Of a DNA stretch of 64,000 nucleotides, positions 126-36,946 are shown piece by piece; positions within the stretch are counted from its first letter, which is position 1; each line of letters starts with the position of its first letter. The position numbers and the translations under genes are program-made. The notes below the pieces were generated by a model. That model worked only from the letters and a program-made list of their open reading frames with translations, did no database searches and had not been told where the DNA came from. The stretch lies in the IMG/VR virus record IMGVR_UViG_3300031746_000008, positions 1 through 64,000 of that record; one strand, given 5' to 3'. This stretch comes from a virus.

Positions 126-149
126 GGGCAGAAATTCTGCCCATTTTTT
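126..149 (+). terminator. Rho-independent terminator-like hairpin before the Ubl gene
   Basis: GGGCAGA pairs with TCTGCCC around a 3-base loop (126-142) and is followed by a run of six T (144-149). This is a textbook intrinsic terminator for the upstream gene. It lies only 13 bases before the Ubl ATG, with the GGAG ribosome-binding site at 151-154 right after the T run. Ubl transcription must therefore either read through it or be attenuated by it, because no promoter fits between. Confidence 0.75.
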
Positions 150-162
150 AGGAGATGTAGTT

Positions 163-399
163 ATGTTGAATGTGACTCTTGTAACGAACAGTGGTCAAGG
201 TGTTCCCCGACAGCTTCAGGTTCGGGAAGGAACTAGTGTGGGCGAGATGCTCAACGTTAATTTTGATGGGCACGTTGAGGATTTCACGGTTAGTTGCCGA
301 CGTGATGGTTGTTCAGAAGTTGTTGATCTGGACGACGAGCTAGAGGACAACGACCGTATTTGCTTATCGCCGAGTAAAGTCGAAGGCGCTACTCTGTAG
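163..399 (+). CDS. Ubiquitin-like beta-grasp modifier (ThiS/MoaD/Ub-like)
   Basis: A 78-residue protein with a beta-grasp pattern: an N-terminal beta-hairpin (residues 2-20), a short helix (TSVGEML), and an acidic end reading DDELEDNDRICLSPSKVEG. The L-x-D-x-D-x-I and P-x-K-V-x-G end is typical of ThiS/MoaD-type sulfur carriers and prokaryotic Ubls. It ends G75-A-T-L instead of a bare GG, so a peptidase would need to remove three residues to expose Gly75. The JAMM protein at 3195 is the obvious candidate. The start follows GGAG by 8 bases. It heads a same-strand series with E2-, JAMM- and E1-like genes. Assignment rests on fold pattern plus neighbours. Modifier role is inferred; a sulfur-carrier role is the alternative. 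Confidence 0.75.
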   Translation: MLNVTLVTNSGQGVPRQLQVREGTSVGEMLNVNFDGHVEDFTVSCRRDGCSEVVDLDDELEDNDRICLSPSKVEGATL

Positions 400-414
400 T
401 TTGTAGGGTAGTAG

Positions 415-1176
415 TTATGGGGAGGGAGGGGGCAATTTCTCCTCCTTCCCCATTCCCTTTCTATATTTATATATTTTTTCTATTAAGTTCATAAATTCTT
501 CATGAGTATGATTATCTTTCATCCAATTGACTTCCCTGGAAACCCATACGATATTTGTTATATCACTAGCTCTTTCTGGAAAACGAGAAACGGGAAAACC
601 GTGGTCTATAGAATCGTTCTCTCCGAGAGTTAATTTTTCTCCAGTGTAGAAGCACTTATGGTCTTGTTTTTTCAATTTATTTAAAAGATCTACCCATAAA
701 CTGGTATCTCCGAGCCTACCAATAGCCCTAAGTTTTAGATAGTGTTCTAAACAAAGACGAGTTTTACTTTTCTTGCGACCGAAACATTCCAAAAATGGTT
801 CTTTGCCACACACAGTACATAAACCTGCGTTAACAAGTTTAATACATCTTTTCTTTGCTTTTGCTACTGATTCTTCTCTGTGAATCTCACAAAACCTACT
901 TTTGTCCAGCTTTGGATTTTTACAATTAGAAATATTACATTTTCCATCCAATTTTCTAATTTGATTTTTATTCCTTTGTCTTGCAGATGATTTAATTTGG
1001 CAACGAGAACATTGTTTATAGTCGGTATCTCTTTGTTTACCACAGCTAACACATATCCCATTTTTGTTTTGTTCTCTTCGTGTCATTTTTGTTTTTTCGT
1101 TATGTTTTATTCTACAAGAATCACAATGGCATTTTCCATCCGAATCTTTTTTACAAACTCTACATAGTCTGGGCAT
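415..1176 (-). CDS. HNH endonuclease with zinc-ribbon repeats (homing type)
   Basis: A 253-residue protein. The ATG at 1174-1176 is chosen over more upstream starts because GGAG lies just before it. Several C-x2-C pairs form zinc ribbons over the first 170 residues (CRVCKK, CVSCGKQ, CTVCGKE). The C-terminal third is an HNH-like nuclease: KCFYTGEKL, then NDSIDHGFPVSR, then a conserved ITNIVWVSREVN segment. It is antisense to the Ubl and E2 genes and resembles the gene at 2427-3125 in the same layout, so the two are paralogues invading the Ubl operon. A homing role is inferred from location and family. The last codons overlap the hairpin at 419-451. Confidence 0.8.
   Translation of the reverse strand: MPRLCRVCKKDSDGKCHCDSCRIKHNEKTKMTRREQNKNGICVSCGKQRDTDYKQCSRCQIKSSARQRNKNQIRKLDGKCNISNCKNPKLDKSRFCEIHREESVAKAKKRCIKLVNAGLCTVCGKEPFLECFGRKKSKTRLCLEHYLKLRAIGRLGDTSLWVDLLNKLKKQDHKCFYTGEKLTLGENDSIDHGFPVSRFPERASDITNIVWVSREVNWMKDNHTHEEFMNLIEKIYKYRKGMGKEEKLPPPSP
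419..451. terminator. GC-rich hairpin between convergent Ubl and HNH genes
   Basis: GGGGAGGGAGG pairs with CCTCCTTCCCC (11 base pairs, one G-T) around an 11-base loop. It lies 19 bases after the Ubl stop and inside the last codons of the antisense HNH gene. The downstream + strand sequence is pyrimidine-rich but lacks a strict T run. It may end transcription of either gene. Confidence 0.45.
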
Positions 1177-1196
1177 AAAATTTCTCCTTCTACGTA

Positions 1197-1207
1197 TTAA
1201 TACACAA
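1197..1207 (-). promoter_or_regulatory. TTGTGTATTAA promoter-like element for the antisense HNH gene
   Basis: On the minus strand this reads TTGTGTATTAA, about 20 bases upstream of the HNH start at 1176. It belongs to a motif (TTGTGTATAAT-like) also found before the minus-strand genes starting at 3125, 38371 and 21671. The -10 match here is weaker than elsewhere. Confidence 0.4.
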
Positions 1208-1237
1208 AAGTAAAATAGTGTTTTTAAGGATTTTAAT

Positions 1238-2437
1238 ATGAATAAATTAGGTTTAGTGGAAACAAACAAACAAATGGCTAAAATAGCTATCTTAATAAGA
1301 AACCAGATACTTTCGCTAACAAATAAAATATCCACAACGACACAACATAAAAAAAATATACAAAATATTGAATATATATTAGAAAATATAAAAAAACAAG
1401 ATAGACTAAAAAATAAGGCTTTTGAAAAAAACTGGTTCTTAGCAGCAAAAAGGCTTGAATATGGAGAAAATGGAACAATTCAGAGTTTTATGAACAAAAT
1501 TGTTGATAACGCAGAAAAAGTAAGTACGTATATTGACGACTTTTATAATCCACCAAATTTTTATCTTCCATCATTTTCAGAAATTATGAAAGATATACAA
1601 GCAACAAAAAAAACATTCCCATCTTTATCATATAAAGATCATATTCTATCGGTGAAAACTAATAAAATAACATTATCTGACGGCGATAATGAAATAGAAT
1701 TAGGAGATTTTAAAATTTGTTTTAATCTAGACACAAGATTTGATTCTAGATTAGACAACATATTAGAAATAAAAGCGTTGAACCCTAATCCTGCGAATGG
1801 GCGTTCGGGAATAACCCATCCACACGTTGATGACGAGCGTTTATGTGCAGGAGACGGTGACTCACTTATTCGTCAAGCTCTCCAACAGGGAAGAATAGAA
1901 GATGCTTTTAAATTAGTTCTTTTAGTATTAGACAATTATAATGAAGAATCTCCTTATGTTCATTTGTATGAATGGAACGGAGAAGTTTATTGCTGTGATG
2001 AATGCGGAGCAGATGATTTAACAGAAGACACTATTTATTCCTGTGAATCTTGTGATAGCGTCCTTTGCGAGAATTGTTGTATTAGTTGTGAAAATTGTTC
2101 TGGATCAACTTGTGCGAAATGCGCCAACATCTGTGGTCGATGCGAGAATATCTCTTGCGAAAGGTGCTCAGAAAACAATACTTGCAAAGATTGTGGCGAA
2201 ACGGTTTGTATAAACTGCATGGAAACATGCAATTCTTGTGGTAAAAACAGATGTTCAGGATGCTTAGAAGAATGCGGTTCGTGCAATAATAAAATTTGTA
2301 ATGAATGTAAGGTAGAGTGCGAAGAATGCTCGACAGAAATGTGTGGTGATTGTTTGATGAAGTGCGAAAATTGTAATAAAATCTTGTGCGCCGAATGTAA
2401 TGAGAAAGATTCTTGTAATATGTTTGCTAAAGTTTAA
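1238..2437 (+). CDS. E2-like ubiquitin-conjugating protein with tandem cysteine beads
   Basis: A 399-residue protein. Residues 1-115 are charged and probably helical. Residues 150-250 carry an E2/UBC signature: NPNPANGRSGI, then H194-P-H-V, then L-C203-A-G-D-G, followed by a helix and YNEESPYVHLYEWNGE. Cys203, nine residues after His194, is the expected thioester cysteine. The tail (252-387) is cysteine-rich, with eight copies of C-x2-C-x4-C-x2-C at residues 269, 284, 299, 316, 331, 346, 361 and 376, an almost exact 15-residue period. These are probably zinc-binding and could act as an E3-like or substrate-binding arm. Starts at ATG 1238 after AAGGA. Lies between Ubl and JAMM genes and is flanked by two antisense HNH genes. 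E2 activity is inferred. Confidence 0.75.
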   Translation: MNKLGLVETNKQMAKIAILIRNQILSLTNKISTTTQHKKNIQNIEYILENIKKQDRLKNKAFEKNWFLAAKRLEYGENGTIQSFMNKIVDNAEKVSTYIDDFYNPPNFYLPSFSEIMKDIQATKKTFPSLSYKDHILSVKTNKITLSDGDNEIELGDFKICFNLDTRFDSRLDNILEIKALNPNPANGRSGITHPHVDDERLCAGDGDSLIRQALQQGRIEDAFKLVLLVLDNYNEESPYVHLYEWNGEVYCCDECGADDLTEDTIYSCESCDSVLCENCCISCENCSGSTCAKCANICGRCENISCERCSENNTCKDCGETVCINCMETCNSCGKNRCSGCLEECGSCNNKICNECKVECEECSTEMCGDCLMKCENCNKILCAECNEKDSCNMFAKV

Positions 2438-3125
2438 GATGGTCGTGGATTTTTTTGATTAGAATTTTAAATTCTTCTTCTGTGTGATCCCATTTCATTT
2501 TATTAACGTCTCTACTCACCCATTGCAAATTTTTAATCTCTCTTTTAAGTTCTGGAAATTTCCCAGAAGGTAAAATGTGATCTATAGAGTCGTTTGTCCC
2601 GATAATAATTTTATCTCCGGTATATGGACAAATATATTTTTGTTTCTCAAGTATCTGTAATAGATCTTTATAAAAGGTTTTTGATCCAAGATTATTTAAC
2701 GAACAATTTTTTAGATGGCAATCAGAACACCAGATTATATTTTCAAGTGATTTATTTTTCCCACATAGGGTGCATAAACCAAGATCCTTTAATCGGGAGT
2801 GTCTCAACTCAGTAGTTTTTCTGCGAATATCTACGCACGCTCTACAACATTTAAATCCCTCGTCGGGTGGTCTTTGGCCGCAAAGAACACATAAATTATT
2901 ATTAAATCTTTTTAATCTAACTCTTTTGTCTTTTTCAACAATATAAACCACACATTTTTTACAACACTTATTTCCTTCGGCAGGTTTATCTCCACATTTT
3001 GGACAAAGATTTTTAGATAATCTTTCATTATAAATATATTTCTGTTTTTCATTTTCTTTCTTTCGGCAAGATTTGCATCTACTTTTTTCACTTTTATTAC
3101 CACAAATATGACATTTCTTGTTCAT
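2427..3125 (-). CDS. HNH endonuclease with zinc-ribbon repeats (homing type)
   Basis: A 232-residue protein; ATG 3123-3125 is preceded by AAAGGAGA. Repeated zinc ribbons (CHICGNK, CPKCGDKP, CVLCGQRP, CTLCGKN) fill the first 150 residues. The nuclease end has ICPYTGDK, NDSIDHILPSGKFPE and LQWVSRDVNKMK, closely matching the gene at 415-1176. It is antisense between the E2 and JAMM genes, and its last codons overlap the E2 stop by about 11 bases. A selfish homing role is likely. Confidence 0.8.
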   Translation of the reverse strand: MNKKCHICGNKSEKSRCKSCRKKENEKQKYIYNERLSKNLCPKCGDKPAEGNKCCKKCVVYIVEKDKRVRLKRFNNNLCVLCGQRPPDEGFKCCRACVDIRRKTTELRHSRLKDLGLCTLCGKNKSLENIIWCSDCHLKNCSLNNLGSKTFYKDLLQILEKQKYICPYTGDKIIIGTNDSIDHILPSGKFPELKREIKNLQWVSRDVNKMKWDHTEEEFKILIKKIHDHLKL

Positions 3126-3156
3126 GCGAGTCTCCTTTACAAACAATTCTAAGTGG

Positions 3157-3167
3157 TTTATACACAA
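3157..3167 (-). promoter_or_regulatory. TTGTGTATAAA promoter-like element
   Basis: On the minus strand this reads TTGTGTATAAA, with its -10-like TATAAA about 32 bases upstream of the HNH start at 3125. It matches the element before TnpA (38400-38410) in 10 of 11 positions. Confidence 0.5.
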
Positions 3168-3194
3168 TCATGGGAAATTTTTTGGAGAAAATAA

Positions 3195-4124
3195 ATGGAA
3201 TTTTTGGAACCGAAACTAAATAGAAGCGGGGTTCTAAGGTTTACAGCATACGCTTTTGCCAAAATAAAGTATATGCGAGACAAAGGAAGTACGGAAATTG
3301 GAGGATATGGAATATGTGAAACCGATGATCCGCTTTTAATAAATGACTTTAAACTTGTTAAGCAACAATGTACTGGAGCCACGGTTGAACTGGATACCGA
3401 GGATTCTATGAAATTTGTCGAGGACATGGTAGACAAAGGGTTCTCGCCGTGGGCTTTTCAAAATGTCTGGATTCACACGCATCCATCCAATTGCCCGAAA
3501 CCTAGTTTGGTCGATGAGGCGAACTTCGACAAGAACTTTAGCCATCCGGCGTGTGCGATATTTTATATTCTGGCAAGAGGTGGTGATAGTTATACTCGTA
3601 TGAGATTTAATACTCCACCTGGAATAGATGTCGAGATTCAATCAGAAACCGATTACAGTGTCCCATTCCCCGCCAGCGACCACGAAAGTTGGAAAAAGGA
3701 GTATGAAGAAAAGGTTTCTGAAGTGAAATATCCTATTGTTATGATGGGAGATGGTGATTCTAGTCTGAACTGGATTAATAAATTGAGAGAAACTTACGAC
3801 CATGTTTATCCTAACGGAACTACGGCGCAAACGATGCAAGAATTGTGTGATGAAAAGGATGAAATGGACGAAAATTTAGAAATGTTTTGGTGTCCAAAAG
3901 AAAATGTTTGTTGGTTTTGGAATGAAGAAGAAGATGATTATTGGAAGTATGATCCGGATTCGAAAAGATTTTATGATGAAAACGACAATCAAGTAACATT
4001 TAAAAATATTCCCAAAGAATGTGAATTATCAGAAATTATTAGGTTCGCTCAAGAAAATTTTAATGCAACAAGTTCATTTTTGAACGAGACGCAAGACATT
4101 GAATATTGTATGGCAGAAGAATAA
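3195..4124 (+). CDS. JAMM/JAB-family metalloprotease (deubiquitinase-like)
   Basis: A 309-residue protein. The full JAMM zinc site is visible: Glu34 in STEIGGYG, then H94-T-H96-P, seven residues, S104-x2-D107. Residues 10-150 form the MPN/JAB domain. The C-terminal half is acidic and aromatic (WCPKENVCWFWN) and is not recognised. In bacterial and phage Ubl systems such enzymes trim Ubl tails or remove Ubl from targets. Here it would be expected to trim the A-T-L tail of the 78-residue Ubl. It shares the strand with the Ubl, E2 and E1 genes. Start ATG at 3195 follows GGAG. Metalloprotease assignment is strong; substrate is inferred. Confidence 0.88.
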   Translation: MEFLEPKLNRSGVLRFTAYAFAKIKYMRDKGSTEIGGYGICETDDPLLINDFKLVKQQCTGATVELDTEDSMKFVEDMVDKGFSPWAFQNVWIHTHPSNCPKPSLVDEANFDKNFSHPACAIFYILARGGDSYTRMRFNTPPGIDVEIQSETDYSVPFPASDHESWKKEYEEKVSEVKYPIVMMGDGDSSLNWINKLRETYDHVYPNGTTAQTMQELCDEKDEMDENLEMFWCPKENVCWFWNEEEDDYWKYDPDSKRFYDENDNQVTFKNIPKECELSEIIRFAQENFNATSSFLNETQDIEYCMAEE

Positions 4125-4148
4125 ATATCTGGGGAGATGATAATAAAT

Positions 4149-4823
4149 ATGTCCGCATTTGTTAATTTAATTGGGAAAAGATTTGGTCGATTGGTTGTTA
4201 TTGGAAGAGTAGAGAATGATAAATATAACAAAATAAGATATTTGTGTAAATGTGATTGTGGCGAAGAGAAAACGATTCTCAGAAATAGTCTTGTGTCCAA
4301 ACGAACAGTAAGTTGCGGATGTTTACAAAAAGAAAGGGCAAAATCGGTTAACGCAAAGCACAATCACACAAGAAGTCCAATATATAGCGTTTGGCAAAAT
4401 ATGATACAGAGATGTAATAATTATAGAAATAAGCAATATAAAGATTATGGCAAAAGAAAAATAAAAGTTTGTTATAGGTGGTCGAATAAAAATACAAACG
4501 GATTTGAAAATTTCCTAAAAGATATGGGATATCCACCCACCAATAAACATCAAATAGACCGAATAGATAACAACAAAGGCTATTATAAAGAAAATTGTAG
4601 GTGGGTTTTACCCAAAATTAATTGTAGAAACAAAAGAAATAATCACACATTAAAATATAACAATAAAGAACAATGTATCACGGACTGGTCAGAAACCACT
4701 GGGATAAATAAAAAAACAATTAAATCAAGAATAGAAAGAGGTTGGTCTCCAGAAAAGACACTAACAACGCCCGTCAGAAAAATAAAAAGAAAAATAAAAA
4801 ATATAAGAAGTAGAAGAAGTTGA
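4149..4823 (+). CDS. HNH/AP2-type homing endonuclease, JAMM-E1 gap copy
   Basis: A 224-residue member of the phage HNH/AP2-like family seen repeatedly in this window. Order of features: N-terminal G-K-R-F-G-R-L; a zinc site from C-K-C-D-C-G and S-C-G-C; a W-x2-M-x2-R-C helix; an AP2-like stretch ending K-V-C-Y-R-W; a degenerate HNH core IDRIDNNKGYYKENCRW; a basic NKRNN; and a C-terminal TPVRK motif. The start at 4149 is preferred over 4137 because GGGGAG at 4131-4136 leaves 12 bases before it and none before 4137. It separates the JAMM gene from the 81-residue gene. Nuclease activity and homing are inferred from the family and its spread. Confidence 0.8.
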   Translation: MSAFVNLIGKRFGRLVVIGRVENDKYNKIRYLCKCDCGEEKTILRNSLVSKRTVSCGCLQKERAKSVNAKHNHTRSPIYSVWQNMIQRCNNYRNKQYKDYGKRKIKVCYRWSNKNTNGFENFLKDMGYPPTNKHQIDRIDNNKGYYKENCRWVLPKINCRNKRNNHTLKYNNKEQCITDWSETTGINKKTIKSRIERGWSPEKTLTTPVRKIKRKIKNIRSRRS

Positions 4824-4843
4824 ACCGTACCAGGAGACGACAA

Positions 4844-5089
4844 ATGTATAGATTAGTAATTACTTACGAAGGCTATAACGAAGCTTTCGACAACCTAATA
4901 AGGAAAACTGTTTCCTCAAAAGAAATAGGAAGTGGCTATGGAATGGGCGAAAGAGATATATCTTTTGAATTTAAAACATTAAAGGAGTTAATTGGTGCGG
5001 GTAGACGAGTAGAAAATAATAAAAAACTAAAAAGGAAAGTAGAAGTTTTGGCATATAACGATGATAATAAAGTCAAATTACCAAGATAA
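4844..5089 (+). CDS. Small conserved-looking protein of the Ubl locus, unknown
   Basis: An 81-residue protein, chosen from ATG 4844 because GGAG at 4831-4834 is well placed. Predicted mixed alpha/beta: MYRLVITYEGYNEAF, a glycine-rich GSGYGMGERD turn, then a basic end (LKRKVEVL). It has no recognised motif. It lies 11 bases before the E1-like gene and downstream of the JAMM gene, so it may be an accessory part of the conjugation pathway. Role unknown. Confidence 0.6.
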   Translation: MYRLVITYEGYNEAFDNLIRKTVSSKEIGSGYGMGERDISFEFKTLKELIGAGRRVENNKKLKRKVEVLAYNDDNKVKLPR

Positions 5090-5100
5090 GGAGAATTAAC

Positions 5101-5769
5101 ATGTCGGTAGCCACAATAGATTTAACCAATAGAGATATTAGACAACGCGAACTAGTTCCAGCAGAAAAACTAAAAAACTTGAGTACAATGATTATCGGGG
5201 TTGGCGCGATAGGAAGGAACCTTGCTATACAATTATCGGCTATAGGAGTACAAAAATTAAAGATTGTTGATTTTGATACTGTTGCTGTTGAGAACCTCGC
5301 CACACAAGGCTTCTTCGAGGAGGATTTGGGCAAACCGAAAGTTGAGGCAGTAATGGAATTGTGCAAAAGTATCAATTCTGGAATATCAATTGAATCAAAG
5401 AATATGAAATTTAACAATAGCATATTTCAAGGGGGCGTGGTCTTCGTTTGTGTGGACAGCATTGGCGTTAGGAAAGAAATATTCAATGGGATATGTAATA
5501 AATGTGATTTATTTATTGATGGTCGCATGTCCGCAGAATATATGAGAATTCTAGCCGTAAGTGACCTGGAATCTAAAGAATACTATGAAAAACAATTTTT
5601 TACACAAGAAGAAGCGTATGTCGGAAGTTGCACGGCGAAATCTACTATATATGCAGCATCAACGGCAGCTAGTATTATGGTTGCCCAATTTTGTAGGTGG
5701 ATGAGAGATATTCCAATCGAAAAAGAAGTATGTATAAATTTACTCAGTATGGAAATGCGGTGTTTATAG
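5101..5769 (+). CDS. ThiF/MoeB/E1-like Ubl-activating enzyme
   Basis: A 222-residue single adenylation domain. The nucleotide site GVGAIG (residues 33-38) follows a hydrophobic strand, and Arg39-Asn40 follows it. Next come IVDFDTVAVENLATQG (the E1-type D-x-D-x-V-x2-x-N-L) and Lys78/Lys80. A later SCTAKSTIYAA segment has Cys177, a candidate thioester cysteine, in the place seen in JAB-associated bacterial E1s. There is no zinc C-x2-C pair and no rhodanese or extra Cys domain, so it is a minimal E1. Strong RBS AAGGAG at 5088-5093. It should adenylate the Ubl C-terminus and pass it to Cys203 of the E2-like protein. Activity is inferred. Confidence 0.85.
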   Translation: MSVATIDLTNRDIRQRELVPAEKLKNLSTMIIGVGAIGRNLAIQLSAIGVQKLKIVDFDTVAVENLATQGFFEEDLGKPKVEAVMELCKSINSGISIESKNMKFNNSIFQGGVVFVCVDSIGVRKEIFNGICNKCDLFIDGRMSAEYMRILAVSDLESKEYYEKQFFTQEEAYVGSCTAKSTIYAASTAASIMVAQFCRWMRDIPIEKEVCINLLSMEMRCL

Positions 5770-5779
5770 GAGTATATAA

Positions 5780-6439
5780 TTGCCTAAGTTCGTTGATTTA
5801 ATTGGCCAAATTTTTGGAAGATTGACGGTCATTAAAAAAACAAATAACAAAGATAATAAAAGTATGTGGATATGTCTATGTAGCTGTGGAAATAGGGTTT
5901 TTGTTAATAGCGGACATCTTTTGTCTGGAAATACAAAAAGTTGCGGATGTTTAAATAAAGAAAATAAATTTAAGCACGGTCACGCCCAGGGTGGAAAAGA
6001 ATCACGAACACACAGGATATGGAAAAATATGTTAAGTAGATGCAATAATCCTAATTCTCTATATTATGAACATTATGGAGGAAGAGGAATTACTGTCTGT
6101 TGTCGTTGGTCTAATAAAAATCAAAAAGGTGTGGGTTTTAAAAATTTTCTTAAGGATATGGGAGAATGCCCAGGCGACAAACATCAAATAGATAGAAAAA
6201 ATAATAGTAAGGGATATTTTAAGAAAAATTGCCGTTGGGTTTTATCAAAAGGAAACAATAGAAATAGAAGAAATAATATATTAATTCCCTTAGACGAAAA
6301 ACTTTGTCTATTAATAGAACTGGCAGAGAAATATGGAATAAACAAATATACATTGAAATATAGGCTGGCGGCTGGCTGGCCGACTAAAGATGCTTTAATG
6401 ACCCCGGCAAGAAAATATAAAAAGAGAAAAAGGAAATGA
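5780..6439 (+). CDS. HNH/AP2-type homing endonuclease with TTG start
   Basis: A 219-residue relative of the gene at 4149. It starts at TTG 5780, seven bases after AGGAG at 5768-5772, and no ATG fits better. Zinc cysteines CLCSCG and SCGC are intact. The core reads HQIDRKNNSKGYF then NCRW, and it ends in TPARKYKKRKRK. It follows the E1 stop by 10 bases and overlaps the next gene by 4 bases (ATGA), so it closes the Ubl locus. Confidence 0.8.
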   Translation: MPKFVDLIGQIFGRLTVIKKTNNKDNKSMWICLCSCGNRVFVNSGHLLSGNTKSCGCLNKENKFKHGHAQGGKESRTHRIWKNMLSRCNNPNSLYYEHYGGRGITVCCRWSNKNQKGVGFKNFLKDMGECPGDKHQIDRKNNSKGYFKKNCRWVLSKGNNRNRRNNILIPLDEKLCLLIELAEKYGINKYTLKYRLAAGWPTKDALMTPARKYKKRKRK

Positions 6440-7725: not shown

Positions 7726-8360
7726 ATGAAAAATTTAATCGGTAAAAAATTCAATAAACTTTTAGTCTTACAAAAAGTAAAATCAAATAAATGGGGTAAT
7801 ACTTATTGGTTATGTTTATGCGATTGTGGACGAGAAAAAATAGTTAGGGGAGATTGTCTTAGAAAGGGATTAACAAAAAGTTGTGGATGCATAAATTTAA
7901 AACATGGACACAACATAAAAGGGAAAAAAACAAGGGTTTATATTATATGGCAAAGTATGAAACGTAGGTGTTTAATTCAAATTGCAAAGCATATAAAGAT
8001 TATGGTGGTCGTGGTATCACGGTTTGTAAACGATGGTCAAATAAGAAAAATGGATTTCAGAATTTTTTAAAAGATATGGGAGAACCACCAACGCCGAAGC
8101 ACCAAATTGATAGAATAGATAATAACAAATTAAAAAATGGTTATTCTCCTAAAAATTGCCGTTGGGTTCTTCCAACAATAAATGCAAGAAACAGAAGAAA
8201 TAATATAATTGTGCAATATAATAATAAAACTCAATGTGCTACGACATTTGCCGAAGTATTTAATATTCCACTTAAAATCTTATTGTGGAGACTTAAAAAC
8301 GATTGGTCTGTCGAAAAAGCATTAATAACCCCTGTTAGAAAATATAAAAAGAGAAAATAA
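7726..8360 (+). pseudogene. HNH/AP2-type homing endonuclease broken by a -1 frameshift
   Basis: The first frame (7726-8070) encodes the family start (GKKFNKL, CLCDCG, SCGC) up to W-x2-M-K-R-R-C. The remainder (YKDYGGRGITVCKRW, HQIDRIDNN, NCRW, TPVRKYKKRK) continues in another frame to 8360. The switch lies near 7969, at TGTTTAATTC. One extra T there would restore an unbroken protein of about 211 residues. This is a recent mutation, a read error in a T run, or less likely programmed shifting. Confidence 0.75.
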
Positions 8361-14148: not shown

Positions 14149-14823
14149 ATGCTAGATTTAAAGGGAAAGAAATTTAATAAATTAACGGGAATCCAACCAA
14201 CCAAAAAGAGAAAAGATAATAAAATAGTTTGGTTGTGGAAATGCGATTGTGGCAAAGAGCACGAAGCCACGGGGAGAGATGTAAAAAGTGGGCATACAAA
14301 AAGCTGTGGCTGTCTAAACATAGAACGTGTAACCAATATGGGCAAGGCCAACAAGACACACGGACACGCCAGCGGAGGAAAATTATCAAAAACATACATG
14401 GTCTGGAGCAGTATGTTGAGAAGATGTAGAGACAAAAATCATAAAAGTTTTCCGATTTATGGGGGTAGGGGCATAACTGTTTGTAAAGAATGGCTCCCGG
14501 AAAACGATGGTTATAATAACTTTTTAAAAGATATGGGAAAATGCCCCAGGGGACATCAAATAGATAGAATAAATAATGATAAATTAATTAGAGGGTATTC
14601 TCCTGAAAATTGTCATTGGACAACATCCAAAATAAATAATAGAAACAGAAGAAGTAATCATCTAATCCCATTTAACGGGAAAGAATTAACTATAGTAGAG
14701 TGGTCAGAAATAACAGGTATCAATAAAAGAACTATTCTAAGACGAATAGCCGCCGGTTGGACTCCCGAAGAAGCCCTAACAATTCCACCAGACACCCGCC
14801 ATAATTGGAGAACTAAAAAATGA
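14149..14823 (+). CDS. HNH/AP2-type homing endonuclease
   Basis: A 224-residue member of the family described at 4149. Zinc cysteines CDCG and SCGC intact; YGGRGITVCKEW and HQIDRINND present. The core ends in NCHW where the other copies have NCRW or NWR. Inserted three bases after one gene and overlapping the next by ATGA. Confidence 0.82.
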   Translation: MLDLKGKKFNKLTGIQPTKKRKDNKIVWLWKCDCGKEHEATGRDVKSGHTKSCGCLNIERVTNMGKANKTHGHASGGKLSKTYMVWSSMLRRCRDKNHKSFPIYGGRGITVCKEWLPENDGYNNFLKDMGKCPRGHQIDRINNDKLIRGYSPENCHWTTSKINNRNRRSNHLIPFNGKELTIVEWSEITGINKRTILRRIAAGWTPEEALTIPPDTRHNWRTKK

Positions 14824-16048: not shown

Positions 16049-16690
16049 ATGAATAATTTAATTGGACAAAGATTCGGTAGATTATTAATTATAAAAAGAA
16101 TATTAACTATAACTAAAAGAAGATTAAGATGGTTGTGTAAGTGTGATTGTGGGAATCAAAAAATAATTCTTTCAGATTCCTTGAAAAGTGGCAAAACGAA
16201 AAGTTGTGGGTGTCTGCAAAAAGAAACAGCAAAGATATTTAGTACGAAACATGGTTTATATCAATTGAATATCTATAATTCATATCATAATATGAAACAA
16301 AGATGTAATAATCCAAATAATCATGCATACAAAGATTATGGCGGTCGTGGAATAAAAGTTTGCAAAAGATGGTCCGGCTCAAGGGGATTCTTAAATTTTC
16401 TAGAAGATATGGGACAACCTCCAACTAATAAATATCAGATAGATAGAATAAATAATAACAAAGGTTATTATAAACGAAATTGTAGATGGGTTGTTTCTAA
16501 AAACAATAACAGGAACAGAAGAGACAATCTTATAATTGAATATGATAATAAAAAACAATGTATGTCTGCTATGGCAGAAGAATATAATATGAATCCGCAT
16601 GTACTAAGAGACAGATTGTCTAGCGGTCAATCAATAGAAAAAGCTTTATTAACGCCTGTTAGAAAATATATTAAAAGGAAAAATAAATGA
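16049..16690 (+). CDS. HNH/AP2-type homing endonuclease
   Basis: A 213-residue member of the family described at 4149, with GQRFGRL, CKCDCG, SCGC, YGGRGIKVCKRW, YQIDRINNNKGYY and TPVRKYIKRK. No clear Shine-Dalgarno precedes ATG 16049. Ends with ATGA overlap on the AAA ATPase start, so it sits just upstream of that gene. Confidence 0.8.
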   Translation: MNNLIGQRFGRLLIIKRILTITKRRLRWLCKCDCGNQKIILSDSLKSGKTKSCGCLQKETAKIFSTKHGLYQLNIYNSYHNMKQRCNNPNNHAYKDYGGRGIKVCKRWSGSRGFLNFLEDMGQPPTNKYQIDRINNNKGYYKRNCRWVVSKNNNRNRRDNLIIEYDNKKQCMSAMAEEYNMNPHVLRDRLSSGQSIEKALLTPVRKYIKRKNK

Positions 16691-18243
16691 CCAATAATAA
16701 TTTTCATACTGATCTCGTCGATTATTTATTGTCGGGCCACGCTTTGTTATCAATTGATACTTTTGAAAAATCAAGATGTATTGATCATATATCAAAATGC
16801 GCTAAAGAAATAAATAGAAAAATCTTTATATGGTCGGCGGCAACTTCGTGGGTAGATGAGAAAAACTGCAAAGTCGGGGGCACAACGGGCCAATTACCCC
16901 CAGAAGAAGTCATAAAATCTATAAATGAAATGCAAGAGAATTCAATTTTTATATTGAAGGAATTCTGTATATATTTACATCACGAAACATACAATTCATT
17001 TGATATGGCAATTTCGTGGCTAGAGGAAACAAGAGAAATTTTAAGTAATTCGTGTAAAACAATCATCTTCTTGGATTCAGCTTTCAAAGCCCCGAACTGT
17101 TTAAAAAATGATATAACTAACATTGACTTCCCTCTACCGCAAAAGAACGATATCGAAAATAATATAAAATTCATTTGCGAAGGCGTGAGCACAAAAGACG
17201 ACACCAAATTCGAACCCGCACAAGAACTATTGCCAGATATTGTAAAATCCTGTTGTGGGATGACGAACACCCAAATAATTGATCGTCTAGCTCTTTCAAT
17301 AAGAAAACACAAAGATTTTAATCAAGATGCTTTAAAAACTATCTTGTCAGAAAAGGCTTCGGTAATAAAAAAATCTGGAATATTGCAGTATATAGAACCC
17401 CCTCCAGGTGGATTGAATAACATTGGTGGATATGGTGCGCTTAAAAATCATCTAAAATTAGATAAACCATGTTTTTCCGATGAGGCAAGAGATTTTGGTA
17501 TTAGATATCCTCGTGGACTTATGTTGGTAGGAATTCCTGGCTGTGGAAAATCTTTGATTACAGTTGCAATTGGATCTGAATTTAACTTGCCATTAGTAAG
17601 TTTAGATATTGGGTCGATTATGTCACAATATGTAGGTAGTTCAGAAAGTAATATGCGAGAGGCGATTAAAATTATAGAAAGTGTTGCTCCGTGTGTACTT
17701 GTTTTGGACGAAATAGAGAAAGGATTGGCAGGCTCCGGCGACTTAGACGGTGGAGCAAGTCGGCGAGTATTTGGTACATTTTTGAAATGGCTTTCTGATA
17801 GAATAGCACCAGTTTATCTTGCGGCTACAGCAAATGATATTAATGGTATTCCCGTAGAATTTTTGCGAAGTGGTCGATTTGATTGTGTTTTTGCACTGGA
17901 TTTACCTAATGATCTTGAAAGAAAATCAATTTTTAATATTCATATATCAAAAAGAAAACGAGAACCATCAAATTATGATATGAAATCTTTAGTAGAAAAA
18001 ACAAATGGGTTTACGGGAAGTGATATTGAAAATAGTATTGAACTAGCATTGAAAATTGCTTTTTGTCAAAAAACAGAATTATCCCAGAGTCATTTAGAAA
18101 TAGCAATTGAATCTACAATTCCATTATCTAAACTTGAACCAGAAAGAATTCAGAAAACAAGAGAATGGGGACTAAAACATGCTCGTAATGCCAACAGTCC
18201 AACAGAAAGAATTGTAGATAAAAAAAGAAAGGTTTCGACGTAA
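16687..18243 (+). CDS. Ycf46-like AAA ATPase
   Basis: A 518-residue protein. The N-terminal 240 residues match the Ycf46-type region (LLSIDTFEKSRCIDHI, FIWSAATSW). The AAA module follows: Walker A GIPGCGKS (282-289), Walker B VLVLDEIEKG (Asp341-Glu342), sensor/arginine region ATANDINGIPVEFLRSGRFD. Ycf46-like ATPases occur in cyanobacteria, plastids and many large phages, often near DUF1257/Ycf35 and DUF2997 genes, all of which are also in this window. Exact role unknown. Flanked on both sides by homing genes. Confidence 0.85.
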   Translation: MTNNNFHTDLVDYLLSGHALLSIDTFEKSRCIDHISKCAKEINRKIFIWSAATSWVDEKNCKVGGTTGQLPPEEVIKSINEMQENSIFILKEFCIYLHHETYNSFDMAISWLEETREILSNSCKTIIFLDSAFKAPNCLKNDITNIDFPLPQKNDIENNIKFICEGVSTKDDTKFEPAQELLPDIVKSCCGMTNTQIIDRLALSIRKHKDFNQDALKTILSEKASVIKKSGILQYIEPPPGGLNNIGGYGALKNHLKLDKPCFSDEARDFGIRYPRGLMLVGIPGCGKSLITVAIGSEFNLPLVSLDIGSIMSQYVGSSESNMREAIKIIESVAPCVLVLDEIEKGLAGSGDLDGGASRRVFGTFLKWLSDRIAPVYLAATANDINGIPVEFLRSGRFDCVFALDLPNDLERKSIFNIHISKRKREPSNYDMKSLVEKTNGFTGSDIENSIELALKIAFCQKTELSQSHLEIAIESTIPLSKLEPERIQKTREWGLKHARNANSPTERIVDKKRKVST

Positions 18244-18912
18244 ATGAATAGGTTCATAGATTTAACCGGACAAAGATTTGGAAAACTTATCGTGGATAAA
18301 TATATAGGTAAAAACAAATGGAGACATATCAGGTGGCTATGTTCGTGTGATTGTGGGAATAAATCCGAAATAAGCGGATGTAATTTATTGTCTGGTAAAA
18401 CTAAAAGCTGTGGATGTTTTGCGAAACAAATTAAAACAAAACATGGATACGCCAAGAGAAATAAAAAATTAAGAGTTTACCAAATATGGTGTGATATGAA
18501 GAAAAGATGTAATAATAAAAATGCTCAATTCTATAGAGACTATGGCGGCAGAAATATTAAGGTTTGTTATAGATGGGCAAATAAGAAAAATGGATTTCAG
18601 AATTTTCTAGAAGATATGGGTGAACCACCATCAACAAAACATCAAATTGACAGAATTAATAATAGTCTAGGATATTACAAAGAAAATTGTCGATGGGTTA
18701 CATCCAAAGAAAATAATAGAAACAGAAGAGATAATCGTGTGTTCAAATATAATAATAAAGATCAGTGCGTTTCAGCATTGGCCGAAAAATATAATATTAA
18801 AAGATCAACATTGTCATCAAGAATAAATAGAGATAAACTTTCAATAGAAGAAGCTTTAACAATTCCTATAAATAAACAACAGCGGAGAAAGAAAAATGCC
18901 AGAAGAAATTAA
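18244..18912 (+). CDS. HNH/AP2-type homing endonuclease between AAA ATPase and DUF3150
   Basis: A 222-residue member of the family described at 4149. ATG directly follows the AAA ATPase stop, and the 3-prime end overlaps the DUF3150 start by 17 bases. Key motifs: GQRFGKL, CSCDCG, SCGC, YGGRNIKVCYRW, HQIDRINNSLGYY, NCRW. The tight fit on both sides suggests precise insertion between two functionally linked genes. Confidence 0.82.
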   Translation: MNRFIDLTGQRFGKLIVDKYIGKNKWRHIRWLCSCDCGNKSEISGCNLLSGKTKSCGCFAKQIKTKHGYAKRNKKLRVYQIWCDMKKRCNNKNAQFYRDYGGRNIKVCYRWANKKNGFQNFLEDMGEPPSTKHQIDRINNSLGYYKENCRWVTSKENNRNRRDNRVFKYNNKDQCVSALAEKYNIKRSTLSSRINRDKLSIEEALTIPINKQQRRKKNARRN

Positions 18913-19840
18913 ATTATTTGATCTTGGATGTTTAATAAATTTAAAAATCGGCTATTGGAGTGCTCGCAAAATGGTTTCACGAGCCGACTTAATAAGCGTT
19001 GGCCTTGATCCAGACGCATTGCCGAAAGATCTTGTGAACTATGGGCGCAAATTATTGGTTTCTAAAAATGAAATTCAAGCCATAAGCAAGGTCGAACAAC
19101 GTGCCCGTTCATATCTTGCAAAATATAGTGCTCCTTTTGAAGCGGCTAATTGTTTCTTCGTTCCAAATAAAATGATTCCAGATCTAGAACACAATCTTAA
19201 ATGTTTTAGAAAAGATTTTTTTGATGTAGTAGACAGCTTTATTTCTCGTTTTAATGACCTGAAAGACGAAGTAAAGAAACAGCACCCTGAATTTTTTGAA
19301 AAATGCTTAAGACAATTCTATCCGTCAACAGCAGAATCTTTGAGGTCAAGATTTTATTTTGAGTGGCATATGTTCACAATCAGTAATATTAATTCAATAC
19401 AACAAACCTCTTCTGAAGAAATTGAATTAAAAAGAGAAAAATTGCAGAAAGAAGCAAATAAGTTTGCAGAAAATTATATTCAAACTATGAGAAAAGAAGT
19501 TGTTGATTTTTGTACTTTGATGGAATGCAGAGTTAATGGAAAAATTTATGGTGATGAAAGTGATCCAAAACAGCTTACAGGAAGAAGTTTAGCATTTTTT
19601 AGAAAATATGTAACAAAATTCCGAAACATGAATATATTCGGCGACAACGAAATTGAAAAAATGCTTATCGAATTTCAAAACAACTATTTGGATCTCGGAG
19701 TTACATCAAAAAGTTTTGATAGCGCAGCAATGAAAACGGCAGTATCACTATCCTTGTCAAGCATCCGTAAACAAGCTTCTCTTGAAGAAGGCGAGGGTTC
19801 GCAGTTTATCAATTCCCTCAAGAGAAAGGTAATTATATGA
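18896..19840 (+). CDS. DUF3150-family protein
   Basis: A 314-residue helical protein: KIGYWSARKMVSRADL at the start, then V-N-Y-G-R-K-L-L, long helices, and FYFEWHMF in the centre. This matches DUF3150 proteins, which usually accompany MoxR-type or other AAA ATPases in phages and bacteria. Here the Ycf46-like ATPase is the neighbour once the homing gene is discounted. Function unknown. Confidence 0.75.
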   Translation: MPEEIKLFDLGCLINLKIGYWSARKMVSRADLISVGLDPDALPKDLVNYGRKLLVSKNEIQAISKVEQRARSYLAKYSAPFEAANCFFVPNKMIPDLEHNLKCFRKDFFDVVDSFISRFNDLKDEVKKQHPEFFEKCLRQFYPSTAESLRSRFYFEWHMFTISNINSIQQTSSEEIELKREKLQKEANKFAENYIQTMRKEVVDFCTLMECRVNGKIYGDESDPKQLTGRSLAFFRKYVTKFRNMNIFGDNEIEKMLIEFQNNYLDLGVTSKSFDSAAMKTAVSLSLSSIRKQASLEEGEGSQFINSLKRKVII

Positions 19841-20466: not shown

Positions 20467-20546
20467 CATATGATGAAGTTATACAACAAATTACGGAGAT
20501 ATGTCAACTACCCACCGATAAATCAGGTGAGCTTGCGAGAAATTAA
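20448..20546 (+). pseudogene. 5-prime fragment of a gene interrupted by a TnpB element
   Basis: A 32-residue frame (MQTKKITYDEVIQQITEICQ, then LPTDKSG) that overlaps the upstream gene as genuine genes do here, but runs into the 3-prime end of tnpB. A second open fragment beyond the element (21732-21950) may be its other half. Confidence 0.5.
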
Positions 20547-21671
20547 TCCCGTGATTGGCGAGTTGACAATCGCCTGCCCTTCAAGGATGTTGCCACCCAG
20601 GTAGGGGAGATTTGAGCGTTGGGCTAATACGTGAGAAGCGTTAACATCTGCATCATATACTAGGCCGCTCTTTGAATAAAACCTACATCCCACTCTTTTA
20701 CCTTCTCTTTTTCCGGTAACAGAATCAATTTGAGAAGAAAATTTTGGGCAAACTCTGACCACTAACTTACCAATTAGTGCGGCTTTGTAGGTTAGAACAT
20801 CCAGGGTTTCTGCAAAACCAACTTGACTACGCCGGTTTACATTATCTTTAAAATGTTTTTTTGTTTTAATGCTTTTCGCGTTTAAATTTTCAACAACAAC
20901 AACATTTGCCTTAGTCTTTAATAGAACATTAACTAATTTATGTCTAAATTCTTTATTTATATTTCGTTCTTTGTGACGAAGTTTTTTCAATTGACGAGTA
21001 GCAGATTTAGCTTTAAGTCTACGCTTTAGAAAACGTATCTTTCTTAATTGTTTTTTATAGTCTTTGTCTAAAAAGATTCTGCCATCGCTTGTAGCAGCAA
21101 ATCTCCGACAACCAAGATCAACACCTAGTGCAAGTTTGGGCTCAACTAAGAGAGTGGAGACCTTAAAAGGTAAGCAAATCCAAATATCATTGTTTTCACA
21201 AAAAATGGTTGGATCACTGAAAAGATATTTTTCCAAAAATCTGGTAAGCCTCTCATAAATACATAAAGAAACTTCCACTCGTTTTTTCAATGTTGTAATA
21301 CGAAACGCTGTATTTTTATAGGAGTATAATCTTTTATCCAACGTAAGCGACAGCCTTTTCTTTTCGCAGGGTTTAGTAATTTTATGTTTATTGCTTTTAG
21401 CGGAACGATAGGCCGATAAAACAGCTTGTTCTGCCTTAATAACTAGTTGAGACTTTATTTCTGGAAATTCGTTTCGTACACGCCGGTACGCTTTATCGTG
21501 GAGATTTTTAATACCATTTTTACAATTCAAGTATCCATTTTCATTAACACTAAAATGCAAAGGAGAAATTTCATTAAACAAAAGCCTGGAGGATTCAAGA
21601 ACTTCAAATAACGCTCTTTTATCTTCCTCGTTTTTAAAAATCAATTTTGTCTTTAATGCCAACGTTTGCAT
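20523..21671 (-). CDS. tnpB: TnpB RNA-guided nuclease, divergent zinc finger
   Basis: A 382-residue protein with RuvC-like motifs: GVDLGCRRF (Asp185), VVVENLNAKS (Glu261) and YDADVNASHV (Asp340/Asp342). The region that normally holds two C-x2-C pairs after the S-S-Q motif has only Cys308 and Cys329, replaced by a basic VTGKREGKRVG loop, so the canonical zinc ribbon appears lost. It is unrelated in detail to the TnpB at 36943. The ATG lies only about 6 bases after a -10-like element, so a leaderless message is possible. Confidence 0.85.
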   Translation of the reverse strand: MQTLALKTKLIFKNEEDKRALFEVLESSRLLFNEISPLHFSVNENGYLNCKNGIKNLHDKAYRRVRNEFPEIKSQLVIKAEQAVLSAYRSAKSNKHKITKPCEKKRLSLTLDKRLYSYKNTAFRITTLKKRVEVSLCIYERLTRFLEKYLFSDPTIFCENNDIWICLPFKVSTLLVEPKLALGVDLGCRRFAATSDGRIFLDKDYKKQLRKIRFLKRRLKAKSATRQLKKLRHKERNINKEFRHKLVNVLLKTKANVVVVENLNAKSIKTKKHFKDNVNRRSQVGFAETLDVLTYKAALIGKLVVRVCPKFSSQIDSVTGKREGKRVGCRFYSKSGLVYDADVNASHVLAQRSNLPYLGGNILEGQAIVNSPITGLISRKLT

Positions 21672-22302: not shown

Positions 22303-22305
22303 TTG

Positions 22306-22947
22306 ATGGATTTAATCGGGCAAAGATTTGAAAGACTTCTCGTTATTAAACAGGACGGTAGAAATAGATCCAACCAAATACTTTGGTTATGCTTGTGTGA
22401 TTGTGGAAAAGAAATAAAAGTAACATCCGGTGATTTAAAAAGTAAACACACAAAAAGCTGTGGATGTTTTAGTAAAGAACAAACAATATTAAGAAATAAA
22501 AATAGAACCAAGCACCAAAAATGCAAAACTAAAATTTATTATATATGGTCGAGTATGATTTCTAGATGTAACGACAAAAATCATAAAGCATACAAGAACT
22601 ATGGAGGAAGAATCCCTCCAATTACAGTTTGTAAAAGATGGTCAAATAAGAAAAACGGATTTGAAAATTTTTATAAAGACGTTGGCGATCCACCATATAA
22701 AAAATCTCTTGATAGAACAGACAATAACAAGGGGTATTTTCCAGGTAACTGGAGATGGGCAACAAACAAACAACAACATAGAAACATGAAAACTAACATA
22801 AACATTAATGGATTGTGTTTAAAAGATCATTGCAAAAAATTTAATCTAAATTATCATACGATAATGACAAGGATAGATACATACGGATATTCTATGGAAG
22901 AAGCTTTAACAATACCAATAAGAAAATATAATAGGAGAAAAAAATAA
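22306..22947 (+). CDS. HNH/AP2-type homing endonuclease (N-W-R-W subgroup)
   Basis: A 213-residue relative of the gene at 4149. ATG 22306 fits GGAG better than TTG 22303. The AP2-like loop carries an insertion (GGRIPPITVCKRW), and the nuclease core reads LDRTDNNKGYF then GNWRW, lacking the usual core Cys. The copies at 29418, 42129, 44439 and 61921 share some of these traits, so the family has at least two subgroups. Confidence 0.8.
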   Translation: MDLIGQRFERLLVIKQDGRNRSNQILWLCLCDCGKEIKVTSGDLKSKHTKSCGCFSKEQTILRNKNRTKHQKCKTKIYYIWSSMISRCNDKNHKAYKNYGGRIPPITVCKRWSNKKNGFENFYKDVGDPPYKKSLDRTDNNKGYFPGNWRWATNKQQHRNMKTNININGLCLKDHCKKFNLNYHTIMTRIDTYGYSMEEALTIPIRKYNRRKK

Positions 22948-24246: not shown

Positions 24247-24363
24247 ATGAGCGATTTAGTCCGATCATATAATTTTAAGGACGTAGCAATTTGCCAAAAA
24301 GAAAATATTTGTAATAGTAGGCTAGACGCAAAAAATAGAGGGGAAATAAGGGAATATAGGTAA
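24247..24363 (+). pseudogene. Truncated 5-prime copy of the guaB/guaC-like gene
   Basis: A 38-residue frame beginning MSDLVRSYNFKDVAICQKEN aligns with the first 38 residues of the full gene at 24989 (SYKFSDIAIYQKENICKSRLD) and then stops at TAA 24361-24363. The homing gene at 24363 starts exactly where it ends. The two copies are clearly diverged, so this looks like the original gene start, displaced by an insertion that brought its own replacement start. Confidence 0.8.
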
Positions 24364-24989
24364 TGGGCAAATTTATTGATTTAACGGGATTAAAATTTGG
24401 AAGATGGACAATTCTTAAACAAATAAACACCAACAAAAAGAAATCTAGATGGAAATGTGAATGTAGTTGCGGAATCATAAAAAATATAGACGGATATAGT
24501 TTAAGAACAGGAGATTCAAAAAGTTGCGGATGCCTGCACAAAGATATAATGACCAAACATGGGCTTAGCAATTCTCATATTGATAAAATATGGAAATCTA
24601 TGATTCAAAGGTGTACCAACCCCAAAAATCCAAGATATAAAGATTACGGAAATAGAGGCATTACGGTTTGCAAAAGGTGGTTGCCTAAAAATAACGGATT
24701 TATTAATTTTCTTAATGACATGGGACTACCGCCAAGCAAGAAGCATCAGATAGATAGAATTGATAACAATAAAGGATATCATAAAAAGAATTGTCGATGG
24801 AGCACCAATAAAGAAAATAATTACAACAGAAGAGATAGCCATATGTTAACATATAAAGGTAAAACACAATGTATTGCAGCCTGGGCCGAAGAATATAATC
24901 TTCCTTACGATACACTTCGGACAAGAATAAGGAGGGGTTGGAATATTGATAGAGCATTAAACGAACCCATCAGGAGAAAAATAAAATAA
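24363..24989 (+). CDS. HNH/AP2-type homing endonuclease inside the guaB-like locus
   Basis: A 208-residue member of the family described at 4149 (CECSCG, SCGC, YGNRGITVCKRW, HQIDRIDNNKGYH, NCRW). It separates the truncated 5-prime copy from the complete guaB-like gene, overlapping both by one base. Its position points to insertion at the target gene start. Confidence 0.82.
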   Translation: MGKFIDLTGLKFGRWTILKQINTNKKKSRWKCECSCGIIKNIDGYSLRTGDSKSCGCLHKDIMTKHGLSNSHIDKIWKSMIQRCTNPKNPRYKDYGNRGITVCKRWLPKNNGFINFLNDMGLPPSKKHQIDRIDNNKGYHKKNCRWSTNKENNYNRRDSHMLTYKGKTQCIAAWAEEYNLPYDTLRTRIRRGWNIDRALNEPIRRKIK

Positions 24990-29417: not shown

Positions 29418-30077
29418 ATGAAATTTGTTGATTTAACAGGATTAAAATTTAGTAGATTAACAGTTATGAAAAGAATTGGTTATGCAAAAGATGGACACAT
29501 AACATGGTCTTGTTTGTGTGAATGCGGCAAGGAAATAATTGTTCCTGGAAATAGTCTTAGGAGCGGGAATACAAAGAGTTGTGGATGTCTATATAAAGAA
29601 AAAATAAAAAATGGATTAAATTTAAAGCATGGTCTTGCAAGAAATAAAAAATCAAAAATATATAAAACATGGCAAGATATGAAATCTAGATGTTTTAATA
29701 AAAATAATAAAGATTATAAAAATTATGGAGAACGAGGAATAACTGTTTGTGAAAGATGGTTAAACAAGAAAACTGGGTTTGAAAATTTTCTTGAAGATAT
29801 TGGCGAAATACCAAAAGGATTAACGTTAGACAGAATAGATAATAATGGAAATTATGATTTTAACAATTGGAAACTGTCTTCTAGAAAAGAGCAACGTAGA
29901 AATCAACGTTGGAATAGACCAATAACATTTAATAATAAAACACAATTTTTAATAGATTGGGCGAAAGAATATAATATTAATCCAAATACATTATGGATCA
30001 GATTATATAGGCTTGGGTGGTCAATAGAAAAGGCATTAACAACACCAGTTAAAAAATATAGAAAAAAAATAAAATGA
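29418..30077 (+). CDS. HNH/AP2-type homing endonuclease (N-W subgroup)
   Basis: A 219-residue relative of the gene at 4149 with CLCECG and SCGC. AP2-like YGERGITVCERW; core LTLDRIDNNGNYDFNNW, in which the N-C-R-W of the main subgroup becomes N-N-W-K. AGGAAGGATAT precedes the ATG. Ends in ATGA overlap with the next gene. Confidence 0.8.
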   Translation: MKFVDLTGLKFSRLTVMKRIGYAKDGHITWSCLCECGKEIIVPGNSLRSGNTKSCGCLYKEKIKNGLNLKHGLARNKKSKIYKTWQDMKSRCFNKNNKDYKNYGERGITVCERWLNKKTGFENFLEDIGEIPKGLTLDRIDNNGNYDFNNWKLSSRKEQRRNQRWNRPITFNNKTQFLIDWAKEYNINPNTLWIRLYRLGWSIEKALTTPVKKYRKKIK

Positions 30078-36860: not shown

Positions 36861-36946
36861 TGGAAGAAATTTGGAAATCAATTATTAATTATGAAGGATT
36901 ATATCAAGTATCTAATTGTGGGATACTGACATACTCTCTATGCTAA
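36860..36946 (+). pseudogene. NUMOD4 homing gene cut off by the IS200/IS605 insertion
   Basis: A 28-residue remnant, EEIWKSIINYEGLYQVSNCG, is a NUMOD4 start like that of the gene at 10172. It breaks off at the IS end and stops inside the IS hairpin. The rest of the gene is not visible beyond the element. Confidence 0.75.

Follow-up and report, generated by a model that had tools for sequence, protein, structure and literature searches.

Whether a phage can own a complete pathway for attaching and removing a ubiquitin-like protein is the question raised by the first 64 kb of the 81,724-bp virus record IMGVR_UViG_3300031746_000008. These 64 kb were analysed as a whole and are referred to here as the window. 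An initial annotation had recognised a ubiquitin-like protein (Ubl), an E2-like protein, a JAMM protease and a ThiF/E1-like enzyme in this order on the plus strand, separated only by homing-type genes and one unknown open reading frame (ORF). The four ORFs were intact and uninterrupted at exactly the coordinates given, a Shine-Dalgarno-like sequence preceded each start, and the separating genes were HNH endonuclease genes and an orphan ORF. The Ubl (163..399, +) comprised 78 amino acids (aa) with a predicted beta-grasp fold. The E2-like protein (1238..2437, +) held 399 aa with a helical N-terminus, a probable UBC-like domain and a zinc-motif array. The JAMM/MPN+ protease (3195..4124, +) and the E1/ThiF-type adenylating enzyme (5101..5769, +) comprised 309 aa and 222 aa, respectively. 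With a probability of about 0.78, the module was read as a cascade for ubiquitin-like conjugation and deconjugation that the phage encodes.

The four genes were present together in 76 of 86 viral E1 loci, and the order Ubl-E2-JAMM-E1 was kept in all 76. Most of the remaining ten loci ended at a contig edge or lacked only a detected Ubl, and JAMM adjoined E1 in nearly all loci. A few loci were near copies of one another, and independent cases are therefore somewhat fewer than the locus count. The four-gene association is far beyond chance. Relatives were retrieved from viral contigs with a mixed E1 alignment only; window E2, E1 or JAMM as single queries retrieved none. The IMG/VR scan with this alignment yielded 80 loci, the ORFs of which were then subjected to iterative profile searches, and window-type Ubl, E2 and JAMM were found beside E1 in the closest loci. 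A tblastn search with the window E1 matched 84 phage records with a best identity of about 31%, mostly Flavobacterium psychrophilum phages (Fipvunavirus) and Bacteroides or crAss-like phages. The window E2 and JAMM gave no tblastn match in named phages.

The carriers fell into three lineages, the large-phage clade of the window, a second group (L025-L029) and the crAss-like/Fipvunavirus phages. In the third lineage, the module genes carried the annotations 'thiamine biosynthesis', 'metalloprotease' or 'hypothetical', and the ThiF gene was preceded by a 'metalloprotease domain' or hypothetical gene and another hypothetical gene. The crAss-like module was located within a gene block encoding primase, uracil-DNA glycosylase, exonuclease and dUTPase. 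The cultured Flavobacterium psychrophilum phage FpV4 has the module, and Bacteroides intestinalis phages have the same E1 according to tblastn. Across many viral contigs, residues, order and fold were kept, confirming the near-complete gene set for Ubl conjugation and removal that had been proposed from the window alone. A fifth gene directly after E1 (8719-9510 in L006, and homologues) was kept in 34 crAss-like loci and was not detected in the window clade.

The window Ubl had no family match in Pfam, PHROGs or NCBIfam. Its AlphaFold2 (AF2) model showed a beta-grasp of the order b-b-a-b-b-b with a predicted local distance difference test (pLDDT) value of 85. Caldiarchaeum ubiquitin (6fnn, 6fj7) was the closest structure in Foldseek; SUMO, MoaD, the Get5 UBL and TtuB were also among the top matches, and the bacterial Ubl-deubiquitinase structure 8tyx was matched as well. 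The beta-grasp Ubl proposed at position 163 was borne out, and the contrary result, a protein lacking this fold, did not occur in AF2 and Foldseek. A profile search against the Protein Data Bank (PDB) returned irrelevant matches only; the top one, a 5,898-aa repeat protein at 5.7e-6, was discounted as no single stretch matched alone. Alignment of 15 Ubl homologues (A7) revealed L60 and G75 as common residues, with G75 invariant. The homologues carried P-x-K-[VI]-x-G, usually with a tail of one to three residues. In the window Ubl, the predicted conjugating Gly75 was located in SP-S-KVEG ahead of the tail ATL. The Ubl of the second group ended in K-G-G and a tail. In that of the crAss-like phages, K-x-SG preceded a further domain or, in the shortest forms, one to three residues. 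The C-termini are conserved in kind across all three lineages. Both hallmarks of a Ubl, the beta-grasp fold and a conserved Gly after the last strand, were present. In the Ubl protein of phage cr126_1 (L006 4350-5276), a domain resembling ribosomal protein L7/L12 followed the Ubl (2.6e-9).

The UBC-like domain of the E2-like protein comprised aa 108-248 (1559..1981, +), with the codon of His194 at 1817-1819, that of the predicted catalytic Cys203 at 1844-1846 and the motif NYNEESPY. G156, H194, C203 and G205 were invariant in 20 homologues. In the crAss clade, the His and Cys were nearly invariant, with Cys in 59 of 59 aligned proteins. The window stretch THPHV-DDERLCAGDG...NYNEESPY paralleled YHPNI-NSNGSICLDIL...PNPDDPL of eukaryotic E2s; HPHV...LCxGxG aligned with HPNI...ICL of UBE2D2, placing an HPN-like motif and the Cys in register. 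The human E2 sequences used for comparison (UBE2D2, UBE2N and UBE2I) were entered by hand. In hhalign, the domain scored 25.3 against UBE2D2, more than any of the 250 control proteins (maximum 21.5), and the motifs were aligned; UBE2N, at 22.3, also exceeded the controls and UBE2I, at 19.0, did not. In hhalign, the window and crAss E2 families matched each other at 2.6e-4, and their catalytic residues lined up. The AF2 model of aa 111-240, mostly above pLDDT 90, consisted of a helix, a beta-meander, the HPHV motif, the Cys and two helices.

The initial annotation did not include the zinc-motif array that follows this domain. Of the 39 Cys residues of the protein, 34 were located in the C-terminal third, in repeated C-x2-C-x4-C-x2-C units (1985..2413, +). 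The array was common to about ten close phage relatives, and a shorter version was found in planctomycete homologues. It was modelled at a pLDDT of about 93, and Foldseek and profile searches linked it weakly to LIM, RING, FYVE and RBR zinc folds. The resemblance to LIM, RING and RBR folds suggests that the array is possibly a built-in E3-like part.

The JAMM protein carried E34 and H94-x-H96-x7-S104-x2-D107, matching the JAMM/MPN+ signature E...H-x-H-x7-S-x2-D. The five metal and catalytic residues that had been noted in the gene at 3195 were invariant in 20 homologues and in 81 of 81 aligned homologues. Family matches of the window protein alone were weak (NCBIfam Cap3 3.4e-4, Pfam JAB 0.069). 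Its profile matched the Caldiarchaeum N11-like Rpn11 homologue (6fjv) at 2.4e-7 and eukaryotic Rpn11 at about 2e-4. The assignment of the gene at 5101 to the ThiF/E1 family was upheld by a Pfam ThiF match of 2.7e-24 and by a Rossmann adenylation domain with the nucleotide loop G33-x-G35 and the catalytic Asp. D119, K80, R124, D140 and T182 were present in 101 of 101 homologues. Cys177 (codon 5629-5631), the conserved Cys expected of a conjugating E1 and the predicted thioester residue, was present in 100 of 101, within C-[ST]-x-K-x-T (C-T-x-K-x-T in the window). The closest solved relatives in the PDB were MoeB, MccB and the NEDD8 E1.

Together, these features would permit the following cascade. 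The JAMM protease would trim the Ubl precursor at SPSKVEG|ATL and expose Gly75, which the minimal MoeB/ThiF-type E1 would adenylate with ATP before taking over the Ubl as a thioester on Cys177. The Ubl would then move to Cys203 of the E2, with HPHV...LCxGxG as the active site. The C-terminal zinc array might recruit the substrate or aid discharge of the Ubl, replacing a separate E3. The Ubl would finally be attached to amine groups of target proteins, from which the JAMM protease could take it off again. That the module tags proteins, and which ones, is inferred. The targets are most likely proteins, of host or phage, that act in replication or takeover, because the crAss-like module lies inside a replication and nucleotide gene block.

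Several observations weigh against this reading. No UBC family was found for the E2 in Pfam, PHROGs or NCBIfam, and a profile search with the E2 domain matched no solved E2. Foldseek with the whole E2 model found zinc folds only and no UBC structure, for which reason the UBC assignment is probable rather than proven; it rests on the motif, the predicted topology and weak profile scores. The conserved residues of the E2-like protein proposed at 1238 (H-P-H-V...L-C-A-G-D-G) and a UBC-like AF2 topology around Cys203 stood; no UBC domain was matched directly by structure comparison. The comparison of the two E2 families was weaker when restricted to the domain (E 0.02). No significant profile match was obtained between the Ubl families of the window and crAss clades; position, size and the C-terminal motif link the two. 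The E1 lacked a separate catalytic-cysteine domain and a UFD. No substrate or proteolytic partner was identified; the catalytic activities, the trimming, an E3-like role of the array and the choice of targets are all inferred.

Other purposes were considered for the same genes. The minimal ThiF/MoeB-type E1 would also suit a sulfur-carrier system, in which the E1 thiocarboxylates the Ubl, as in ThiS/ThiF and MoaD/MoeB, to thiolate a nucleotide, a tRNA or a metabolite, with the E2-like protein as a partner that does not conjugate. The planctomycete Ubl matched Pfam ThiS at 4e-4 and the crAss modules lie amid nucleotide genes, but no rhodanese, sulfurtransferase, thiamine or molybdenum cofactor gene was found among the genes examined, and the Cys-bearing E2 was always present with its His and Cys conserved. 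The JAMM gene alone is not decisive here because such proteases occur in sulfur pathways too (Iyer et al. 2006, PMC1779556). The Gly-ending Ubl was fixed together with E1, E2 and JAMM and the catalytic residues were conserved; conjugation and removal are therefore favoured, and sulfur transfer is improbable. A phage-carried defence or superinfection-exclusion cassette, which like Bil would attach the Ubl to the structural proteins of rival phages, would use the same chemistry as the proposed cascade for another purpose. Its parts are the same as those of Bil (PMC11354881), and PADLOC-DB includes similar E1 and JAB models. However, no other defence genes adjoin the module, the Ubl is single and not tandem as in BilA, and the position in the crAss-like replication block and the single fixed order in all 76 loci suggest a core function, leaving a defence role unlikely. 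A counter-defence role was suggested by the Cap3 match of the JAMM protein, its best in NCBIfam and that of an isopeptidase of the cyclic oligonucleotide-based antiphage signalling system (CBASS). Phage E1, E2 and JAMM would then act against the Ubl systems of the host (CBASS Cap2/Cap3, Bil) through stripping or competition. Stripping would require the JAMM protease alone, whereas a Ubl and an E2 are also encoded by the phage, and the Cap3 match was short and far under the curated cut-off; such a role is very improbable.

The remaining alternative, a misclassified host or plasmid contig with a bacterial (planctomycete) operon that is not phage-owned, has been largely refuted. In its favour, the same operon was found in contigs of Planctomycetota metagenome-assembled genomes (MAGs) with mobile-element-like neighbours, and the 81.7-kb record itself yielded no terminase. 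Against it, the record encodes a DnaB helicase, primase, DNA polymerase, UvsX-like recombinase, NrdA, RNA and DNA ligases and an exonuclease. A terminase gene was present in several relatives that have the module and a downstream AAA/DUF3150 block, the crAss-like and Fipvunavirus carriers are undoubted phages, and the E1 tree placed the window in an all-viral clade (96/94). The proposal of a phage-owned pathway among phage replication and nucleotide genes was corroborated by the virus record, these replication genes and the terminase of the relatives. In the same tree, cellular copies stood among other viral lineages; 14 came from planctomycete bins and one from a Thermoplasmata bin. The cellular copies kept the gene order where it was readable, except on the rearranged Thermoplasmata contig. 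Those examined had mobile-element-like neighbour genes, and some genomes held two copies. A planctomycete host for the window phage is possible. The Thermoplasmata-binned contig (L090) carried two Ubl-like genes (2138-2506, 4844-5074), two E2-like genes (3544-4797, 5163-5921), one JAMM and one E1. On balance, the odds lean slightly towards a virus-owned Ubl cascade, its E2 fitted with an E3-like array, as a conserved and probably core function of several large-phage lineages including the crAss-like phages, marking replication or host proteins during infection.

Bil and PRTRC clusters had been named initially as having the same parts, which holds as an analogy and not as membership. Type 6d/PRTRC systems, located on plasmids and mobile elements, have separate genes for Ubl, JAB, E1, E2 and a helical protein (Iyer et al. 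2006, PMC1779556). In the window module, the same four activities are likewise spread over four separate genes, and the crAss JAB and ThiF weakly matched PRTRC_A and PRTRC_ThiF. The cut-off was reached for none of the PRTRC models; the window E1 scored 26.7 bits against PRTRC_ThiF with a cut-off of 144.75, and no window protein matched PRTRC_A, PRTRC_B or PRTRC_C. The E2s of type 6d lack a His before the Cys and have a downstream His (PMC1779556), whereas the window E2 has the His of HPHV before the Cys. It is also fused to the zinc array and carried by phages. ThiF, E2 and JAB genes lie close together on a Crinalium plasmid in the PRTRC/6d manner; the window Ubl did not match the small protein of Crinalium. 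A phage-borne Ubl with a JAB is known from the tails of lambda- and T1-like phages, where TAPI (Ubl) and TAPK (JAB) are tail assembly genes without E1 or E2 (PMC1779556). Bil comprises a standalone Ubl (BilA), E2 (BilB), JAMM (BilC) and E1 (BilD), and is a bacterial antiphage defence, whereas the window module is phage-owned with a zinc array added to its E2. BilA has two Ubl domains (PMC11354881) and the window Ubl is a single 78-aa domain. CBASS type II Cap2/Cap3 and the 6a fusions share the E1, E2 and JAMM chemistry, and Cap3 was the best JAMM model. The E1-E2 fusion of Cap2 was absent, E2 (399 aa) and E1 (222 aa) being separate genes, and a dedicated Ubl gene distinguishes the window module. 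No CD-NTase was named among the scanned ORFs, for which no dedicated search was made. The Planctomycetota operons (L090-L104) had the same gene order, an HPHV/LCxGDG E2 with a zinc array and E1s of 42-52% identity; they differed in lying on cellular MAG contigs with DUF2958 and HATPase neighbours and in their shorter zinc array. The ubiquitin operon of Caldiarchaeum subterraneum (ubiquitin, Rpn11 homologue, E1, E2 and E3) provided the closest solved folds and profiles for the window Ubl and JAMM. The Caldiarchaeum system is cellular and archaeal and has a separate RING E3, whereas the window module is phage-borne with its zinc array fused to the E2. Prokaryotic E2/RING operons were reportedly described by Burroughs et al. 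in 2011. No description of the phage Ubl module was found in the open-access literature; an earlier description elsewhere is possible.

Most ubiquitin-like systems that have been studied in prokaryotes serve cells as antiphage defences, for example Bil and CBASS. If the proposed cascade is correct, the module would amount to a ubiquitin-like system of a prokaryotic virus that brings its own modifier. Its completeness and fixed order in at least 76 viral contigs suggest that phages, too, own and rely on tagging, and that ubiquitin-style tagging, beyond its occurrence in host cells, is widespread among phages in their own right. Its targets and purpose are directly testable because the cultured phage FpV4 has the module and Bacteroides intestinalis phages have the same E1. 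The fusion of E2 and zinc array, with planctomycete and archaeal-like relatives, bears on the origin of E2 and E3 functions.

Within and around the module, several further features were identified. A terminator-like hairpin, GGGCAGAAATTCTGCCC, followed by a T run (126..150, +), ended just 5' of the Ubl ribosome-binding site; the window held no second copy of it. Two HNH endonuclease ORFs were inserted antisense to the module. The first, between the Ubl and E2 genes (415..1335, -, likely start 1179; Pfam HNH_4 0.0015, phrog_1035 8e-10), was absent from the corresponding place in relatives. The second was located between the E2 and JAMM genes (2427..3167, -, likely start 3125; Pfam HNH_4 0.0081, phrog_10378 6e-5). 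An HNH homing endonuclease gene lay between JAMM and E1 (4137..4823, +; phrog_374 3.2e-68) and another directly 3' of E1 (5780..6439, +; phrog_374 4.7e-64). Both belonged to one family with many plus-strand copies, the others at 7726-8360, 14149-14823, 16049-16690, 18244-18912, 22303-22947, 24363-24989 and 29418-30077, and the load of inserted HNH homing endonuclease genes in the window was unusually heavy. The orphan ORF (4844..5089, +; 81 aa from ATG 4844, 89 aa from TTG 4820) had no relatives in the family libraries or related viral loci and is probably not part of the module.

Some kb 3' of the module, an AAA ATPase gene (16687-18243, +) was followed by a DUF3150 protein gene (18896-19840, +). 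This block was kept in five or six related viral contigs and is a possible unfoldase partner. A BrxL-like protein (35210-36610, +; BrxL_ATPase 7.9e-101, BrxL_N 2.9e-22) represented a phage-encoded component of bacteriophage exclusion (BREX) defence, and a ClpP protease was encoded at 43282-43911 (+; Pfam 7.2e-30). Two TnpB/OrfB-type genes (Cas12f1-like_TNB; 20523-21671, - and 36943-38016, -) were among the few long antisense genes of the window. In NrdA (48416-51445, +) and thymidylate synthase (40412-42136, +), the family matches flanked an endonuclease-like stretch, resembling an intein.

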